35,669 nucleotides of DNA. Source: a virus. The stretch's first letter is position 1. Every line of letters starts with the position of its first letter. The stretch lies in IMG/VR virus record IMGVR_UViG_3300026519_000034, positions 1 to 35,669 of that record; one strand, 5' to 3'. Under the pieces are notes generated by a model. The model worked only from the letters and a program-made list of their open reading frames with translations. It was not told the origin of the DNA and searched no databases. A program made the translations under genes and the position numbers. Below are positions 16,912 to 32,530 of the stretch, piece after piece.

Positions 16912-17324
16912 ATGTTGCTCCAAAGATAACGCATCATATTTCCATCCATTTTATGGCTGGAAAACCCGCATAAACTAGCCAGCCGGACACCGGATTTATT
17001 TTCCGGCCTAACTGTGCAATATATTTTTGCGCCTGTATCTTCACTCATTTTGGCGATGCTTAATTGCGCGATGCGCACCAAAGGCAACATCCGAGCAGCC
17101 GCCCGTGCATCAAACAGGCCCATCATTTCAATAGACTGATCATCAATCATTACGAACATTAGTGCCGCCAACGGCCCCAGATCGTCACCTGCTTCCATAG
17201 AAAAACCATGCCGCCACTGGTAAAATATGACCTTACCAAGCGTGCCAAACCGTATTCCTTTTTCAGAAGCCAGCATCAGTAGACTGTCAATCGTGGCAGG
17301 CACACGCACCTCTATAGATCCCAT
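16908..17324 (-). CDS. GNAT-like small protein (T7 gp13-like position)
   Basis: 138 residues. The pattern is of an acetyltransferase-type alpha/beta fold: a central strand (LAALMFVMIDDQSIEMMGLF), a helix (AARMLPLVRIAQLSIAKM) and a final segment with VRPENKSGVRLASLCGFSS, resembling the GNAT N..rla...GF end. The acetyl-CoA loop is not clear, so activity is doubtful. DUF2833-like proteins (T7 internal virion protein A) have a related look, but the location between terminase and portal differs from T7. The start overlaps the TerL stop by 13 bp. Confidence 0.5.
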   Translation of the reverse strand: MGSIEVRVPATIDSLLMLASEKGIRFGTLGKVIFYQWRHGFSMEAGDDLGPLAALMFVMIDDQSIEMMGLFDARAAARMLPLVRIAQLSIAKMSEDTGAKIYCTVRPENKSGVRLASLCGFSSHKMDGNMMRYLWSNI

Positions 17325-18913
17325 ATTGATGTCTCTTTAGCCGATCCGCTATTTTGATTGATTGAGATAATATTAGAACCTCGCACCACACCGGCCGCAG
17401 CATTGACAATGCCGCCGCCACGATAACCCAGCTGTAAATACTGATAGGCATCGTGCGGGTGAGAATACTCATTTTTATCGACCTGCAATTTATCAGTGCG
17501 CCCTTCAGACGCATTTTTTGTTAGTTTGTATTGCGAGACAAAACCACGAATAAGGTATTTCATGCGCGGATCAAAAATTGAGCCGGGCGTATTAACATCA
17601 ATATCCCGCAAGGACATTGAAACCGCCTCAATTCTCAACCTCGGTTCGTTACTGTGTGTCGGCTGGATATTTACCGATATGGCTTGTGACACAATTTGCA
17701 TAAACGCAAAGTCACCCGCCTCTGTATCAGCCCCCATATAATCCGCCGGATCACCCCAGGCTCCACCACAAACCATACCGGCAAAATCCCGTAACAGCAC
17801 ATGATTAACCATTTCAGCAAAACGAGTGGCATTAGTGACTGATCCCTGCACCGTGGAAATTTCACGAAGCCCGCGAAACTGCCCATTCGGCATGAATTGC
17901 CCGATGATACAGGCAGGGCGACCACCGCCATCAAAGCCCATGTAAAATGGTAGATCCCGTATCGGCTCCAAAGGTTCATCTGAGATATGTTTTTGGGTGG
18001 AGAACTGCCCCTGATAAACCGGCGTTCCACTTATTACCCCTGCATATTGACCATGCACATTGCGCAAACTGTCAGGCGTTGTCGGGCCGCCAAAGCCAAA
18101 TTCTTCTTTTTCATAATCACGCCTTGATTTTCCTGCCCTGTTTTCACCTTGAGCAGACAAGCCTGAAGGTTGATGAAAAAAATTATAAGCACCCCACTTT
18201 TCCGGCTCCTCAATATGGCGCTTATAGGTCCAGTTACTCGGATCAGGCGGGTTATAATCTCCAAACACAATACGCGGCAGCATAACAACTTTTGCCCCGG
18301 TTTCCTCATCTGTTTCCCAGCCCAGCCGCTCGCCTTCCCAGGGCATAATGAAATCCCGACTTGGATATCTACCTGTACGTCCATAAAGCAACCCCGGCGC
18401 ATCCTCATGCATCAAATCCACTTCATTAAGATAACCCATTGAAATTTGGTAACCTTTAAAGAAACTGCTTAAATTTGTATCAGAAACAGCGCCGGTTTCC
18501 ATAATAAATTCCACCGGCGTTTTTCGCCATCCATCCGGCCACTTGCGCATAACATCCCACGAAAGCGTATGTGTGACAGGACGATCTTGACCGCCTGAAA
18601 AATGTTCCTTCACCGGCCGTTTCGTATAGGGGCCAAATTTTGGAAATTCTTCCAGCCATGAGGCAAGAGTTGTTTTGGCCAACTCCCTGTAAGTGTTGCG
18701 AATGATAGCCAGCTTCACATGAATAACGCCGTCCTTGCAAACCGGAAAAAGGTTACCCGCATGAAACGGCCCCTTATAGATTGCACCAACTGTTTTCCCG
18801 CTTCCCCAGGGACCCATTATCAGATCAATCGGCCCTTCACTTTTAATGAAAGCCTCACAAACAGGACCGGGCGGCTTATATTCATCAATCACCATTCCGT
18901 CATTTTTTTTCAA
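17312..18913 (-). CDS. Terminase large subunit
   Basis: 533 residues. The N-terminal ATPase has a Walker A at residues 34-41 (GPWGSGKT) and a Walker-B-like strand near 155-166 (ISMGYLNEVD). The C-terminal RNase-H-fold nuclease starts near residue 325 (FYMGFDGGG, first Asp) with a second acidic motif GDPADYMGAD. The enzyme cuts concatemeric DNA and drives packaging through the portal. The reading frame opens with TTG preceded by AAGGGA. An in-frame ATG at 18895 (MVIDEYK) is the alternative. The ATPase and nuclease parts appear complete. Confidence 0.92.
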   Translation of the reverse strand: MKKNDGMVIDEYKPPGPVCEAFIKSEGPIDLIMGPWGSGKTVGAIYKGPFHAGNLFPVCKDGVIHVKLAIIRNTYRELAKTTLASWLEEFPKFGPYTKRPVKEHFSGGQDRPVTHTLSWDVMRKWPDGWRKTPVEFIMETGAVSDTNLSSFFKGYQISMGYLNEVDLMHEDAPGLLYGRTGRYPSRDFIMPWEGERLGWETDEETGAKVVMLPRIVFGDYNPPDPSNWTYKRHIEEPEKWGAYNFFHQPSGLSAQGENRAGKSRRDYEKEEFGFGGPTTPDSLRNVHGQYAGVISGTPVYQGQFSTQKHISDEPLEPIRDLPFYMGFDGGGRPACIIGQFMPNGQFRGLREISTVQGSVTNATRFAEMVNHVLLRDFAGMVCGGAWGDPADYMGADTEAGDFAFMQIVSQAISVNIQPTHSNEPRLRIEAVSMSLRDIDVNTPGSIFDPRMKYLIRGFVSQYKLTKNASEGRTDKLQVDKNEYSHPHDAYQYLQLGYRGGGIVNAAAGVVRGSNIISINQNSGSAKETSIWDL

Positions 18914-19250: not shown

Positions 19251-19904
19251 TTAGTGCGACTTGTCACTATCAGGTCGCATATCAACACAATCGTTAAGCT
19301 GTTGATTATCAATGGTTTTTTCATTCGGCATAATCCCGGCGCTTAAAGTTCCATCATCGTTATTCAGGCTGGACTGGTTCACACTGAAATTATTGAAAAC
19401 CATCATCGGGCGAATATCGCTTGGTGGTGCATCCTTCGGCTGCTGCTTCGCGTGCCAGTAAGGCAGGCTTGCAATCATCGCGCTTTTTTGCAGTTCCAGC
19501 GCTTCCATTGGGTCAATCGGCGCTCGTGGCACTTTATCGGCCTCAAAAACTAAACCTTGCTTAATCAATTTTTCACGCAATTGCTCACGATATTCGGTCA
19601 CCTTCATAGCCAGGTCAACAGGTGTCATCGAATAGATTGAGGCGAGACCGTGCATCGGATCACGATACCCAAGCGCCAGCAGATATTGAGTAATTTCAAC
19701 ATCTTTTTTGTTCTTCGAGCCTTTTGGCCGCCCCACCCCCTTACTTTCAACCGCATACATTTCACGCGCATCGAGCGGCAAAGGCAACGCCAGTTCATCC
19801 GGTGGAAACAACAAGTCAGGTTGATCATCAGCAATTTGCTCAATATCAGCGGCAATTTCATTGGTGCCTGGATGATCCTTATTATTTTTTTGGTCATAAC
19901 TCAT
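19251..19904 (-). CDS. Terminase small subunit (putative)
   Basis: 217 residues. An AT-hook-like basic motif GRPKGSKNKK (58-67) is followed by a helical region and a segment with SAMIASLPYWHAKQQPKD, the 'ALPYWHAKxP' feature of many alphaproteobacterial phage small terminases. The N-terminus is acidic, and the C-terminal ~50 residues look disordered. It would bind packaging-site DNA and regulate TerL. It is the first late gene after the origin-like block and lies upstream of terL with a 337-bp gap. The C-terminal tail beyond PYWHAK is unusually long and Asn/Asp-rich. Confidence 0.75.
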   Translation of the reverse strand: MSYDQKNNKDHPGTNEIAADIEQIADDQPDLLFPPDELALPLPLDAREMYAVESKGVGRPKGSKNKKDVEITQYLLALGYRDPMHGLASIYSMTPVDLAMKVTEYREQLREKLIKQGLVFEADKVPRAPIDPMEALELQKSAMIASLPYWHAKQQPKDAPPSDIRPMMVFNNFSVNQSSLNNDDGTLSAGIMPNEKTIDNQQLNDCVDMRPDSDKSH

Positions 19905-20098
19905 AAAATATCATTCCCTGTTCTGCATTTTTCATTCTTCACGGCCGGTCGAGCGGTATCAAAGTTTTCTGCAAAATTTCCAGCGCGTGTGTGTGCCTTC
20001 CTAAGCCCATAAAATGCTAACCAACTGAATATATTGTAATATTTTATTCATGCGAGCAACCGAGCCCCAAAAGCAAATTACCGTTTTGTTATTGTGGT

Positions 20099-20131
20099 AA
20101 TTCTTTGGTAATTGTAATTTACCAAAGAATT
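20099..20131. repeat. 13-bp perfect inverted repeat inside the iteron block
   Basis: AATTCTTTGGTAA (20099-20111), a 7-nt spacer and TTACCAAAGAATT (20119-20131). Each arm contains the GGTAA/TTACC iteron core, so this may be an inverted pair of binding sites. Confidence 0.7.
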
Positions 20132-20181
20132 CATATACTTATATACAAATTACTGAATTACCGATGTAATTATGTATATGT

Positions 20182-20205
20182 ACGCGCGCGCGCGCGCGCA
20201 CGCGT
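20182..20205. repeat. Alternating CG tract
   Basis: An almost uninterrupted CG dinucleotide run embedded in AT-rich DNA. Such tracts favour Z-form DNA under negative supercoiling. Here it sits in the centre of the iteron block. Confidence 0.85.
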
Positions 20206-20567
20206 GAATAAGTTATATATGCTGGTAATTCTGTAATTCTCACAATAAGCCTATGATTTTATTGAGTTTTTTCAATTACCGGAGAATTACCGGCAATTAC
20301 TGCCACATTCTCCGCACCTGCCCTTTGGCCGGAAAACCATCATCACACACTCCAGTTATTCTTAAGTGCTCGCACGACAAAACCGCTGAAATTTGCCTAA
20401 AAATGTGAAATTGTGCGAGTTCCTTTTTCTTCAAAATGGGTATGGGTGCGGGTTAATTGCGCTAAAACAAATTGAGAGGATAAAAGGGCATGGGTAATAG
20501 CGCGGGTGGCGGGATTTGTCGTTCGCTTACGCTCACTCGATCATGCGTTTTGCTGTTGATAGGGCAG

Positions 20568-20710
20568 CGCTGCATACTGGCGCGCCGCGAAAGCGCGCCA
20601 GTATGCAGCGGCATTGGCTTTCTGACGTTAGAAAGTCAATATCACGGGCTATTCAGCGCTCCGCGCTGGCCCTTGGTCGCGGCATTAATGTGAAGTTTGG
20701 ATTAATAGCC
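20568..20710. repeat. Highly structured block with 18-bp perfect hairpin
   Basis: CGCTGCATACTGGCGCGC (20568-20585) pairs perfectly with 20593-20610 around loop CGCGAAA. Next come CTTTCT/AGAAAG (20618-20635), CAGCGC/GCGCTG with a 3-nt loop (20654-20668), and GGCTATT (20647-20653) that can pair with AATAGCC (20704-20710). No gene is convincing here. Possible roles: single-strand initiation/primase loading site, terminator for the helicase transcript, or a structured RNA. Confidence 0.6.
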
Positions 20711-20721
20711 GGATAAAAAAA

Positions 20722-22542
20722 CTATTCATTACGCGCCGTATTCTGCCAATGGTCAAAGGCTTTTAGATCTAGAAAAATACAGGAATGTGTAACTCGGTTA
20801 ATCGTCACCTTAAAACGGTTACCGCTGCCGCGTACCACGACATCTTTAGGCGCTTGTTTTAGCGAGCGCATCCAGCCGCCACCTTCCCAGTCAGAGCCTT
20901 CAAACAGTTTTTCAATCCCCTGACCGCCCGGCGGCACGCATAGCGCCAGTCCCTCAATATGGTCCACCTTTCCAGGTGCTTTAATTGATAGTCCGGCACT
21001 GATAAGTTTACGCTGATTAAGCCTGAAATCATCCGCTTCAAAAAGCTGCACTTCCTCAAGATATTCGATGATACTGCCAACCGTTTGCTTTTCACCGCCC
21101 TTAAATGTTTCCAAACTGGCGGTCAGCAAATGCTCTACACATTGCAGCCATTCCGGTTTTTGCTCACCTCGCTCCATTTTTGTCATGTCAGCTAACATCT
21201 GTCCCAGCCTGTCAGGCTCATCAATGGGCAGGCCCATGTCATCCAGCACATTCTTACCCACTACCAGCTCAGCTGCCGCCAGCAGTGTTGCGTAGGTGTC
21301 GATCGCCCGCTGGTTAAAGCCTGCCTTGTGCAAAATTCGTTGCCAGTCCGGCAAAATATCATCAGTAAATTTTTTCCAGCCCTGCATAATTTGACGTAAA
21401 ATCATCCGGCCATCATCAGAAGAATAAACAAATTTATCCTCACCAGAATAACCACGCTCTTCAAAGGGTGTTAAATCCAATATCGCCATGCGACTTTTAT
21501 CGCTGGTTTCCAGTTCCGGCACCCGAATTGACGAGAAAAAGAATGAGCATTTCAAAGTGAACTTTTGCGCCGAATGGTCACTCGATCCCCGGTGGCTGTC
21601 TGCACCGCTGGCGGCCACGCGCGCCAGGTCAATCACTGGCAAGCGTTTAGAGCGATTTTTAGCACCGCCCTCAAACTCATCAACAATCACCGCTGTGCTG
21701 TCCTGCTGGATGGTTTGGCGTATGCCCGCTGCAGTCGTGTCAGCCGTTGCCATAACCGCACTATCAAGCACAGCCTGAATGATCCCGTGCAGTGTTGACT
21801 TACCGACACCGGCCCCGCCGGTGGTGTATATAATCGGCCGCCAGTTTAGCGCGCCACCCATCAGCGCGGTTACCATCCAGCCGATCAGCAAAATCGGGTC
21901 GAGAATTTCTCGCCCCCAGTTCCACGTGCGAAAATCCAGCAATATCCGCTGTGCGGGCGATTCTTCAATATCAACATATTCCTGCCAGGGCGTTAAAATA
22001 TCATATTGCACCGAATAAAGCTTGCCCCGGTGTTCGCCCGGCTCTGAAGATAACAGCCGCCCATTGCGCATGGACCAAAGGCTTTCACCGGAGTGCCAGA
22101 TGAATTCTCCGCCCTTGTCGCGCCAGCCACCACGGCCCTCGTGCTGCTTTTCCGGGTCAAACATTCCGCGACGTGAGCCTTCGGCTACAAAACACCGAAA
22201 TAGCTTTTGATATTCCAGTCCATTGATTTTTGGCGGCGCAAATTCTTCCTTATTTTTTAACTTTTTTGTGTTCTTCTTTTTCTTCAATTTCTTCGGTGCG
22301 GCCCAGCGCGGAAAAGCCCACTCACAATAATTTTGGTGGTGGCCAAACAACTTTGTCACGCTGACCGCATCGCCTTTAATCAGCGCAACCAGCTGGCCAT
22401 TAGCATCAGATACCCAAATAATTTCACCATTCACCCCATGCACCGAAACCGGACAATCGGGCGGCAGATTATCATAGGGGTATCCTTCCCATTTACCGGC
22501 CTCAATACCGTTGCGTGGAAATTCCGGGGCCGGGTCGGGCAT
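20722..22542 (-). CDS. Phage replicative helicase (D5/primase-helicase-type ATPase)
   Basis: 606 residues from the ATG. The ATPase has Walker A TGGAGVGKST (241-250) and Walker B TAVIVDEFEG (283-292), followed by a sensor/arginine-rich region (RVAASGADSHRG). A Lys-rich linker lies at 84-99. It should unwind DNA at the phage origin together with the split primase encoded upstream. The ATG has no ribosome site, whereas the frame stays open for 29 more codons. An ATT at 22611, with AAAGGAA about 10 bp upstream, would add the plausible N-terminus (I)SASNYIKAQFADAKRE. The true start may therefore be 22611. Confidence 0.8.
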   Translation of the reverse strand: MPDPAPEFPRNGIEAGKWEGYPYDNLPPDCPVSVHGVNGEIIWVSDANGQLVALIKGDAVSVTKLFGHHQNYCEWAFPRWAAPKKLKKKKNTKKLKNKEEFAPPKINGLEYQKLFRCFVAEGSRRGMFDPEKQHEGRGGWRDKGGEFIWHSGESLWSMRNGRLLSSEPGEHRGKLYSVQYDILTPWQEYVDIEESPAQRILLDFRTWNWGREILDPILLIGWMVTALMGGALNWRPIIYTTGGAGVGKSTLHGIIQAVLDSAVMATADTTAAGIRQTIQQDSTAVIVDEFEGGAKNRSKRLPVIDLARVAASGADSHRGSSDHSAQKFTLKCSFFFSSIRVPELETSDKSRMAILDLTPFEERGYSGEDKFVYSSDDGRMILRQIMQGWKKFTDDILPDWQRILHKAGFNQRAIDTYATLLAAAELVVGKNVLDDMGLPIDEPDRLGQMLADMTKMERGEQKPEWLQCVEHLLTASLETFKGGEKQTVGSIIEYLEEVQLFEADDFRLNQRKLISAGLSIKAPGKVDHIEGLALCVPPGGQGIEKLFEGSDWEGGGWMRSLKQAPKDVVVRGSGNRFKVTINRVTHSCIFLDLKAFDHWQNTARNE

Positions 22543-23792: not shown

Positions 23793-24674
23793 TCACTCTT
23801 TTCTCGTGCGCGTGCGCGTGAACACGCGCGCTGACTGCTTACTCAAATCGTTATAATCATCTACGCCGTCACGTTCCGGCGGGTTCATCACCGAAATTGG
23901 CTTGCTATGCATCTCAAGTGCTTCAAATGCCCGGTCAAACTGACCGCGCGCCGTCATGTTACCGATATTGTTATCGCGCCAAATAATGAGGCTTTCACAA
24001 CACTCCATATCAATCGGCATATTGGCAAAGTTGGAAAGCGATCCCGCCGCCCAAAGCCGTTCATCCGGCAAGGCGTGGCAAAGCTGCAAGCCGGTCTCAA
24101 TGCCCTCTGCGGCGTGCAGGTTTTGCCCGCACAAATCATCCTCCGGCGGCAAGCCGCTCTTGCCGTGGTTAAGCCGAATCACACTGCCATTGGCCTCACC
24201 AATAATCATTTTTGAAGGGAATTCTTTGCCCAAATTCACTTTTTGCGGTCGCTGCGGGTCAAGAAAAGTAACATGGCAGGCGGTCAATTGTCCGGTTGGC
24301 GAGCGCATCGCTGCATGAATGGCTGGAAAGTCAGGGCCGGGCTTTATTTTACGGCGCTTGCCATCTACGGTTTTGTATTGAGCCATTTTCCAATATTCGG
24401 TTGCATTGGAAAATCGAAAAGTATTCATATCAAGATTAAAATTTTGCCGATCAATCGGTATATTGCGCCCGGCAAAATAATCAAAAGCATGTCGACGGGC
24501 CGGGCAATCAACATTAAAAGCCCGGCCCTTTTGCCACAATTTATTAGCAAGCATAATCCGCTTGATGCGGTTGCTTGCGGATTTTTGTTCGTGAATTACA
24601 CGGGTTTGGCTGGCGCGCCTGGCCAACTCACGGCGTTCATCAACATTCATGCGCCGTATGCCGAGCCAGTCCAT
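23793..24674 (-). CDS. Primase C-terminal part with Toprim domain (separated by frameshift)
   Basis: 293 residues from ATG 24674. The Toprim signature is complete: EGIETGLQL (190-198), LWAAGSLSNF, a strand with IIWRDNN (230-236) and DDYNDL (272-277). This is the phage/plasmid type of primase (DUF7146/Toprim_3-like) that makes RNA primers. Its first residues MDWLGIRRMN are what normally follows the LIAY segment of the zinc-finger part, which is encoded in another frame by 24640-24969. Removing one copy of a 7-bp tandem duplication at 24672-24685 would restore a single protein. Reinitiation at this ATG might still give a separate chain. The last codons overlap a palindrome-like GCGCGT/ACGCGC hairpin (23814-23829). 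Confidence 0.85.
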   Translation of the reverse strand: MDWLGIRRMNVDERRELARRASQTRVIHEQKSASNRIKRIMLANKLWQKGRAFNVDCPARRHAFDYFAGRNIPIDRQNFNLDMNTFRFSNATEYWKMAQYKTVDGKRRKIKPGPDFPAIHAAMRSPTGQLTACHVTFLDPQRPQKVNLGKEFPSKMIIGEANGSVIRLNHGKSGLPPEDDLCGQNLHAAEGIETGLQLCHALPDERLWAAGSLSNFANMPIDMECCESLIIWRDNNIGNMTARGQFDRAFEALEMHSKPISVMNPPERDGVDDYNDLSKQSARVFTRTRTRKE

Positions 24675-26410: not shown

Positions 26411-26475
26411 GATTTTTCGGCGCGCCCTCGCAGGCCGGGCGAATGCCCGAACAGCCGTGAGAGAAAACAAGTCAT
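26305..26475 (-). CDS. 56-residue chimeric ORF coupled to both neighbours
   Basis: Starts at ATG 26475, overlapping the stop of the upstream regulator gene (ATGA), and ends with TGA overlapping the methyltransferase GTG. The N-terminal 21 residues (MTCFLSRLFGHSPGLRGRAE then K) are unique. The last 35 are identical to those of the 161-residue protein because of the 107-bp repeat. It is too tightly fitted between neighbours to be a random gap. It could be a real small protein or a translational bridge that keeps ribosomes moving to the methyltransferase start. Confidence 0.55.
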   Translation of the reverse strand: MTCFLSRLFGHSPGLRGRAEKSAVRSSLTCRNATTEPIGEAQSAYAQAPSNARILP

Positions 26476-27008
26476 ATATCCACCCGCAAATCCTGTTCCA
26501 GCCGTTCCAGCATGGCCTCAATGGCCGGATCATCGCGCATATTCTCCACCTTGCGCATCATCTGGCAGATCGCCGCAGGTGTTACATTATGCACCCGTGC
26601 CAGCGCCGCCTGAGGAATACCCAGCCCGGTATTCATCAGATAAGTTGCAAATTCACGCACCCGCGCCGCCTGCATCCAGTCCGCCGAAAGTGTTGCCCGT
26701 TTCGAGGCCACCTCGCGCCGCACCAATGCCATATCGACGTTGATTTCCCGCGCCACCAGCGCCGCCACCGGCATATAGACCAAAAAAAATCCCTGCCCGT
26801 GCCGGGCCATATCATCCAGATTGCCAGAAATTCCAGTCAGCGTCCTTGCCAATGCGAAAAGATTTGCAGGGCGCATTTTCGACTTGCCAGACTTGGCGCG
26901 CGAATAATTCGTTTGCGATAATTTTGTGGCCGCGCATAACTCAAAAATACTGATCCCGGCTTCACGCCGCGCTGCATCAATATCGTCAATGGTCAGCAAT
27001 TGGCTCAT
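26472..27008 (-). CDS. Regulator with XRE helix-turn-helix and DnaA-C-like C-terminus
   Basis: 178 residues. Residues ~5-55 form a Cro/CI-type HTH (AGISIFELCAATKLSQTNYS...). The C-terminal ~50 residues (YLMNTGLGIPQAALARVHNV, TPAAICQMMRKVENMRDDPA) follow the pattern of the DnaA domain IV-like HTH seen in alphaproteobacterial regulators (sqaavArafgr...vEdrRDdPafd). The middle (FFLVYMPVAALVAREINVD) is hydrophobic/helical. It could bind the origin iterons or an early promoter. The ATG abuts the stop of the ParB-like gene (TAAATG) and its own stop overlaps the 56-residue ORF. Confidence 0.7.
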   Translation of the reverse strand: MSQLLTIDDIDAARREAGISIFELCAATKLSQTNYSRAKSGKSKMRPANLFALARTLTGISGNLDDMARHGQGFFLVYMPVAALVAREINVDMALVRREVASKRATLSADWMQAARVREFATYLMNTGLGIPQAALARVHNVTPAAICQMMRKVENMRDDPAIEAMLERLEQDLRVDI

Positions 27009-28751: not shown

Positions 28752-28752
28752 T

Positions 28753-28926
28753 CCACTTAACAAACGCCTATGCGTTTTGACGGATTTTCAGGCGTTTTTT
28801 CCACTTAACAAACGCCTATGCGTTTTGACGGATTTTCAGGCGTTTTTTCCACTTAACAAACGCCTATGCGTTTTGACGGATTTTCAGGTGTTCTTTCCAC
28901 TTAACAAACGCCTATGCGTTTTGACG
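28753..28926 (+). terminator. Tandem array of 48-bp units, each with terminator structure
   Basis: Units at 28753-28800, 28801-28848, 28849-28896 and a partial one at 28897-28926. The first two are identical; the third differs near its end. Each has AAACGCCT pairing with AGGCGTTT then a T6 run in units 1 and 2 (intrinsic terminator), and a competing AAACGC-CTAT-GCGTTT hairpin. The array begins 2 bp after the repressor stop. Confidence 0.85.
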
Positions 28927-32484: not shown

Positions 32485-32530
32485 TGGTGGGCCGTGTAGG
32501 GATCGAACCTACGACCCGCTGATTAAGAGT
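32485..32530 (-). other. attP core: 3' half of tRNA-Lys(CTT)
   Basis: The minus strand reads from the anticodon loop (CTCTTAA) through the T arm (GTAGG-TTCGATC-CCTAC) to the 3' CCA end. The 5' half of the tRNA is absent on the right (32531 onward), and phage genes lie on both sides. This is the pattern of a phage attachment core that rebuilds the host tRNA-Lys after insertion. Confidence 0.85.

Follow-up and report, generated by a model that had tools for sequence, protein, structure and literature searches.

At the pac site of phage P1, seven hexamers arranged in two groups are bound by the small terminase. For the SaPI and PICI elements, the available part of one report describes two sets of iterons that flank an AT-rich region located 3' of rep (PMC6092414). 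In the available part of a second report (PMC7581432), SaPI Rep reads the iterons directly downstream of its own gene through its C-terminal domain, apparently in the form of two hexamers, and for Cch2, the repeats downstream of its gene, a site of three 5-nt iterons, are bound by the C-terminal domain as well.

The window considered here, i.e., the whole stretch of DNA that was analyzed, is a 35,669-base viral contig, in which a block located between a helicase gene and a putative small terminase gene carries an array of short repeats. The array, its conserved layout and its link to helicase genes recur across phages. From sequence comparison, we regard it as probable that this block is a SaPI/PICI-like rep-ori origin in a doubled, mirror-image form, present in a broad family of temperate phages and with the helicase as its predicted binder; that the block is an origin, whether of this or another type, we hold to be very probable.

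The repeat block and its gene neighborhood

Besides portal, major head and tail proteins, the window encodes an integrase, a repressor-like protein and a large terminase (TerL) related to the one of BcepC6B, and it is on account of these genes that we read it as a temperate, BcepC6B-related phage of the podovirus type. That it could be a PICI satellite was rejected, since portal, major head, tail and TerL genes are present. The order on the minus strand is, among other genes, ParB-like protein, HTH regulator, methyltransferase, Toprim primase, GapR, 606-aa helicase, array block, putative small terminase (TerS) and TerL. The main features are as follows:

17312..18913, minus strand: large terminase (TerL), 29% identical to BcepC6B TerL
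19251..19904, minus strand: putative small terminase (TerS), adjoining the array; positioned beside TerL, AT-hook-like GRPKGS motif
20076..20291, no strand: iteron array with seven exact AATTACC/GGTAATT copies spread over 216 bp; near copies also present, e.g., 20295(+)
20076(+), 20096(-), 20107(-), 20156(+), 20224(-), 20274(+), 20285(+): the exact AATTACC/GGTAATT copies
20100..20155, no strand: TerS-side AT-rich block (79% AT), where melting is proposed
20171..20206, no strand: central alternating purine-pyrimidine tract (CG/CA/TA), 36 nt, axis of the mirror symmetry
20230..20275, no strand: helicase-side AT-rich block (74% AT), where melting is proposed
20568..20610, no strand: inverted repeat with perfect 18-bp arms and a 7-nt loop, separating the array from the helicase stop, not counted in the origin
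20722..22542, minus strand: 606-aa AAA+ helicase, proposed initiator (PHROG 21086/35358; model mean pLDDT 93)
23793..24674, minus strand: Toprim primase, proposed partner, in 55/56 loci with at least 5 kb upstream

The block at 19905-20721, bounded by the helicase stop and the TerS start, contains small mechanical ORFs only, in agreement with the sequence-only reading which had called it gene-free. Within this block, the organized array occupies only about 20076-20301; it is located 3' of the helicase gene, without intervening gene and, in the window, 431 bp from the helicase stop. The seven exact AATTACC/GGTAATT copies and the near copies reported by that reading were recovered, all seven at 20076-20291. 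Counting both strands, exact AATTACC is found 11 times in the window for 4.71 expected (sd 2.24; none of 100 shuffles reaches 11), and seven of these 11 copies fall within 20076-20291. In the helicase-TerS gap, taken for this count as 872 bp of which 60 bp belong to the TerS frame, the most frequent 7-mer is present seven times against a shuffle mean of 3.4 (0/200 shuffles), while allowing one mismatch brings the number of AATTACC sites in the gap to 18. Regarding the finer structure, the three copies at 10-11 bp spacing are obtained by counting the near copy at 20295 (20274, 20285 and 20295, by eye), the exact copies alone giving two pairs at 11 bp, and what had been described as a 13-bp palindrome is a 13-nt inverted repeat with arms at 20099-20111 and 20119-20131 separated by 7 nt. 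The CG-alternating tract is indeed present as the 36-nt alternating run, which may be Z-DNA-prone, and so is the AT-rich DNA, as the two blocks listed above.

The function of TerS is inferred from the location of its gene beside TerL. In the TerS family (49 sequences), an AT-hook-like GRP-GS-NK motif precedes the helical core, R59 being invariant and G58, G62 and N65 nearly so; the TerS model is of low confidence and returned no PDB match at E <=0.001. For the helicase, no Pfam hit was obtained, and among 50,697 phage records only two, each an unannotated faecal scaffold, match it over 80% of its length; no DNA similarity to the array block was found in these records.

Several other elements of the window deserve mention. 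A blind repeat scan ranks the array second, behind a 48-bp tandem repeat. The latter, located at 28752-28926 just 3' of the repressor-like gene, consists of 3.6 copies with 98% match and holds the inverted halves AAACGCCT...AGGCGTTT. For the 246 nt around the hairpin at 20568-20610, the RNA folding z is -5.56; Rfam gave no match at gathering scores. Just after the integrase gene, 33 nt at 32485-32517 resemble the 3' end of a tRNA-Lys gene (identity by eye) and are present in a single copy in the window; they are probably the attP core, and the GTCGCAC repeats around them may be arm sites of the integrase. Finally, the 178-aa protein encoded at 26472-27008 carries HTH_3 at its N-terminus and, at its C-terminus, weak matches to NCBIfam PRK06030 that are below cut-off; we presume it to be a relative of DnaA domain IV.

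Recurrence and mirror-image layout of the array

Scanning viral contigs with the single helicase, TerL and portal proteins gave no matches, and alignment-based searches then succeeded. From the search with the helicase alignment, the 80 best of 153 viral loci were used together with 27 loci from genomes, and most of the latter we take to belong to Alphaproteobacteria. In total, 99 distinct helicase loci were scanned, 76 of them with TerS downstream, by a blind search of 400-bp windows for 7- and 8-mers present in excess. Since the most repeat-dense 400-bp window sits in the helicase-TerS gap in 72/76 of these loci, the array is not a product of chance but an element. Gap windows score at least 7 in 72/76 loci and at least 10 in 61/76, and windows scoring at least 10 outside the gap were found, among the 40 best per locus, in 6/76. 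The four exceptions are L060, in which nothing was found, L068, with few exact copies of a diverged unit, and L067 and the window, in which the array comes second. The dense repeats of L078, L081 and L083 were rejected as arrays, as they are located inside ORFs, and so were those of phage Pmp11, located inside its annotated terS.

Seventy-four arrays were retained for further counts, L060 having no array and L105 being left out with its best gap window scoring 5.5 and lying 1.6 kb from TerS. They have a median span of 237.5 bp and a median of eight exact copies. The repeat unit varies between phages, with 41 distinct 7-mers, a number that exceeds the one of true unit types because shifted readings of one unit were counted apart; GGT or ACC is found within the consensus unit in 51/70. 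Measured to stop-to-stop frames, whose starts are not proven, the array end is at most 110 bp from the TerS frame in 63/74 loci and more than 500 bp from it in 10/74. Relative to the helicase, the array starts within 450 bp in 40/74 loci and beyond 1 kb in 27/74. A search with TerL relatives yielded 80 loci, eight of them with a matching TerS: L120, L121, L122 and L124 possess both the TerS match and the helicase, and the array is present in 4/4; L123 and L125 have the TerS match and the array on contigs that end before any helicase; L126 and L136, whose TerS matches are weak, lack both a nearby helicase and a nearby array. Dense windows are present elsewhere in this set (e.g., L129, L130, L167 and L169), and those given a closer look were L141 and L175 only.

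Despite their differing units, the relatives have a common layout of four iteron clusters, two AT-rich blocks and a central alternating tract, arranged with mirror symmetry. In a meta-profile of 69 arrays centered on the alternating tract, the iteron clusters are near +-40 and +-100-120 bp and the AT peaks at +-60 bp. An alternating run of at least 12 is present in the central 120 bp of 69/74 arrays against 1.9% of 3521 random windows from the same loci, and the AT excess over the locus background is positive on both sides in 70/70. One of the two AT blocks is A-rich, with an A/T skew of +0.157 (p 8e-6), and the opposite one is weakly T-rich, with a skew of -0.063 (p 0.043). Inner iterons are mirror-oriented in 215/221, part of the excess over half being built in, as the reference sense was set per locus by majority. 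The sequence-only reading had also called the iterons helically phased, and this is not a rule of the family, since the relatives favor an 8-bp spacing (104 neighboring pairs) over 11-12 bp (68 pairs).

Candidate binders and the weighing of origin against packaging

By fold, the best-scoring chain for the helicase is SCCmec Cch (5dgk; Z 16.4, rmsd 6.4, 420 aligned), with the SaPI5 primase-helicase at Z 14.6 (rmsd 5.6, 328 aligned), SaPIBov1 Rep at Z 12.9 (rmsd 5.7, 329 aligned) and MCM chains at up to Z 14.1. As the MCM scores are close and the comparison barely covers the residues after 462, i.e., the part proposed to bind the iterons, the match indicates an AAA+ core rather than an exact kinship. 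Among 56 loci with at least 5 kb upstream of the helicase (the window included, helicase and TerS being present by selection), the counts are 55 for the Toprim primase, 27 for the 178-residue HTH protein, 16 for GapR and 8 for the ParB-like protein, absences possibly reflecting genes outside the stretch or too diverged, the ParB-like one above all. GapR, ParB-like and HTH proteins are thus unlikely as general binders of the array. Of the binders proposed earlier, the 178-residue regulator and the ParB-like protein lose ground with these counts, and the helicase is the favored, predicted one.

The main rival is a packaging site (pac or cosB), at which TerS would bind the repeats and TerL would cut nearby, because most arrays (63/74) end so close to the TerS frame. 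The arrays distant from the helicase by more than 1 kb (27/74) and the AT-hook-like motif of TerS point in the same direction. Against it stand the loci with VapE-type helicases (L200-L218, L200 being the contig of L141 and several others being near-identical), in which the top repeat window, scoring 7.0-19.8, is located at the helicase 3' end in 19/19 and starts -132 to +125 bp of the match end, with a TerS match in 0/19 and a TerL match in 3/19; a TerS of another family could be the reader there. An alternating run of at least 14 is nearby in 8/19 of them. Several VapE loci use GTCCACAC/GGTGTGGA units, and such a run was not found near these. Likewise, of 69 distinct relatives of the L112, Acjo_20 and MQ-4 helicases (among which L231 is the contig of L078, and L290-L293 are those of L085-L088), 38 have a top window scoring at least 8 and 31 have none. 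Relative to the helicase stop, the midpoint of this window falls at -200 to +1000 bp in 29 of the 38 and elsewhere in nine, and no TerS match was found among the listed relatives, those scoring at least 7, where the reader could again be a TerS of another family. In L112, the array is beside the helicase with its parts ordered as in the window family (by eye), and TerS was not found. In Acjo_20, eight copies of TGTAACA are located just 5' of the helicase, the annotated terS being about 4 kb from the array with the record ends joined and about 39 kb otherwise. The 5' location in Acjo_20 also counts against the rep-ori reading, as do the 31 helicase relatives without a window scoring at least 8 and the nine with theirs elsewhere. 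An array that goes with a cognate TerS, as expected for pac or cosB, is hence not the general picture, the arrays being also found at helicases without TerS match, where another TerS family is conceivable. The 10/74 arrays more than 500 bp away from TerS also count against packaging, and mirror symmetry would ill suit a one-way process.

Comparisons between pairs of loci bear on the same choice. In 258 pairs with helicase identity >50%, from which pairs with TerS identity >=98.5% were excluded, iteron distance tracks the helicase (rho 0.23) and not TerS (0.01), which argues against a packaging site; when loci were resampled in 500 bootstraps, the helicase correlation exceeded the TerS one in 97.4%, and the two intervals overlap. 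This evidence is weak, because the pairs are non-independent, near-identical TerS pairs were excluded and the test on all pairs of 71 loci gave no difference, iteron distance tracking helicase, TerS and TerL alike. The pair L064 and L068 speaks against packaging as well, the unit differing at nearly all sites (CGGTACA versus CGTAACA, by eye). Per 40 columns, their TerL are 97-100% identical, as is the TerS core, the end windows of TerS being at 60% and 71%, and their helicases are 84-90% identical in the last four 40-column windows, with five changes at window residues 545-554. Ten further changes within 294-337, in the AAA+ core, blur this C-terminal signal. In the pair L049 and L043, the units differ in part, TerS is near-identical and the helicases share 89% identity. 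L030 is a counter-case in favor of packaging: compared to L018, L019, L020, L022 and L023, its main unit differs, and its TerS (61-64% identical) has changed more than its helicase (92-94%), with TerL at 96-98%. The core changes of L064 and L068, the case of L030 and the C-terminal part that the fold comparison barely reaches all make it less certain that the iterons are bound by the helicase. GC skew, which the sequence-only reading had put forward as a check, gives the origin reading no support: the coarse profile of the window is without sign switch at the array, and GC3 skew over 69 loci (helicase 0.022 versus TerL -0.047) has a direction opposite to the one of bidirectional replication from the array. 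Taking this evidence together, we consider a packaging site improbable.

The repeats might also form an operator array, at which a phage repressor would bind and control the terS promoter. The array is indeed upstream of terS and an HTH protein is encoded nearby; however, HTH, GapR and ParB-like proteins are present in so few of the 56 loci, promoter-like sites in the block are at chance level (3 versus 2.5), and mirrored AT blocks with an alternating tract would not be required, so that we judge this reading very improbable. It is rather improbable, in our view, that the block is an origin bound by another protein, i.e., a host factor or the primase, on which the helicase would be loaded secondarily. 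Arrays beside VapE-type and DnaB-like helicases and the near-constant Toprim primase favor it, and the array of L175, 3' of a DnaB-like helicase, implies that the binder need not belong to the 606-aa helicase family; it is opposed by the fold of the helicase, akin to initiators reported to bind their own iterons, and by the change of unit in concert with changes in the helicase.

The replication origin with iterons proposed by the sequence-only reading is therefore the best-supported reading, on comparative grounds drawn from the relatives. For a doubled rep-ori origin read by the helicase, the 606-aa AAA+ protein would bind the short iterons through its C-terminal domain, assemble on both halves of the mirror-symmetric array and melt both AT-rich blocks. 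Two helicase rings would then depart in opposite directions, with priming by the phage Toprim primase, while the central alternating tract would keep the halves apart and may absorb torsional stress.

The array and known replication and packaging sites

Among described systems, BcepC6B (a BPP-1-like phage, L117) is close by its TerL and has inverted repeats, GGGACGATA x2 and TATCGTCCC x2 (by eye), between its primase-helicase and gp01/terS. In contrast with the window, its primase-helicase has a D5_N domain and gives no significant hit to the window helicase profile, the repeat is different and not within its densest repeat window, and an alternating tract was not seen. Across the record ends of BcepC6B, from about 42410 to 120, the GGGACGATA/TATCGTCCC repeats surround an AT-rich palindrome, and this region is a candidate origin. 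The pac site of P1 resembles the window by its seven short repeats in two groups but is bound by the small terminase, whereas arrays of the window type also go with helicases where the window TerS family is absent. The likeness to SCCmec lies in the fold of Cch; unlike in the window, a mirror layout is not described for Cch2 in the available part of PMC7581432.

The resemblance to the SaPI/PICI rep-ori is broader, as it includes an AAA+ helicase as predicted initiator, a primase gene and, 3' of the helicase, AT-rich DNA flanked by short iterons, with terS sometimes next, as far as the available part of PMC6092414 describes these islands. Iterons directly 3' of the gene for the proposed initiator helicase are found in the window and, more loosely, in the family, and two iteron sets flanking an AT-rich region are found twice, as mirror images. 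The differences are that the window is a phage with its own portal, head, tail and terminase genes, that in its family the four clusters and the two AT-rich blocks are mirrored about a central alternating tract, and that the array is often closer to terS than to rep. More tentatively, as a possibility that we doubt rather than assert, the arrays may represent a widespread class of phage origins that is undescribed as far as the open-access literature searched goes, i.e., a doubled mirror rep-ori with two self-loading rings back to back, a Z-DNA-prone tract as topological switch and an iteron "password" re-coded with the helicase, leading to many mutually blind origin types among related prophages. 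The two-ring loading design is testable, and the re-coded iterons offer a natural series for learning how such helicases read DNA. With the present analysis, origins are predicted in a group of phages for whose helicase the 50,697 phage records hardly offer a match; similarly placed repeat arrays occur with VapE-type helicases, and an organization like the one of SaPI and PICI elements, in doubled form, is found in phages equipped with their own virion genes.
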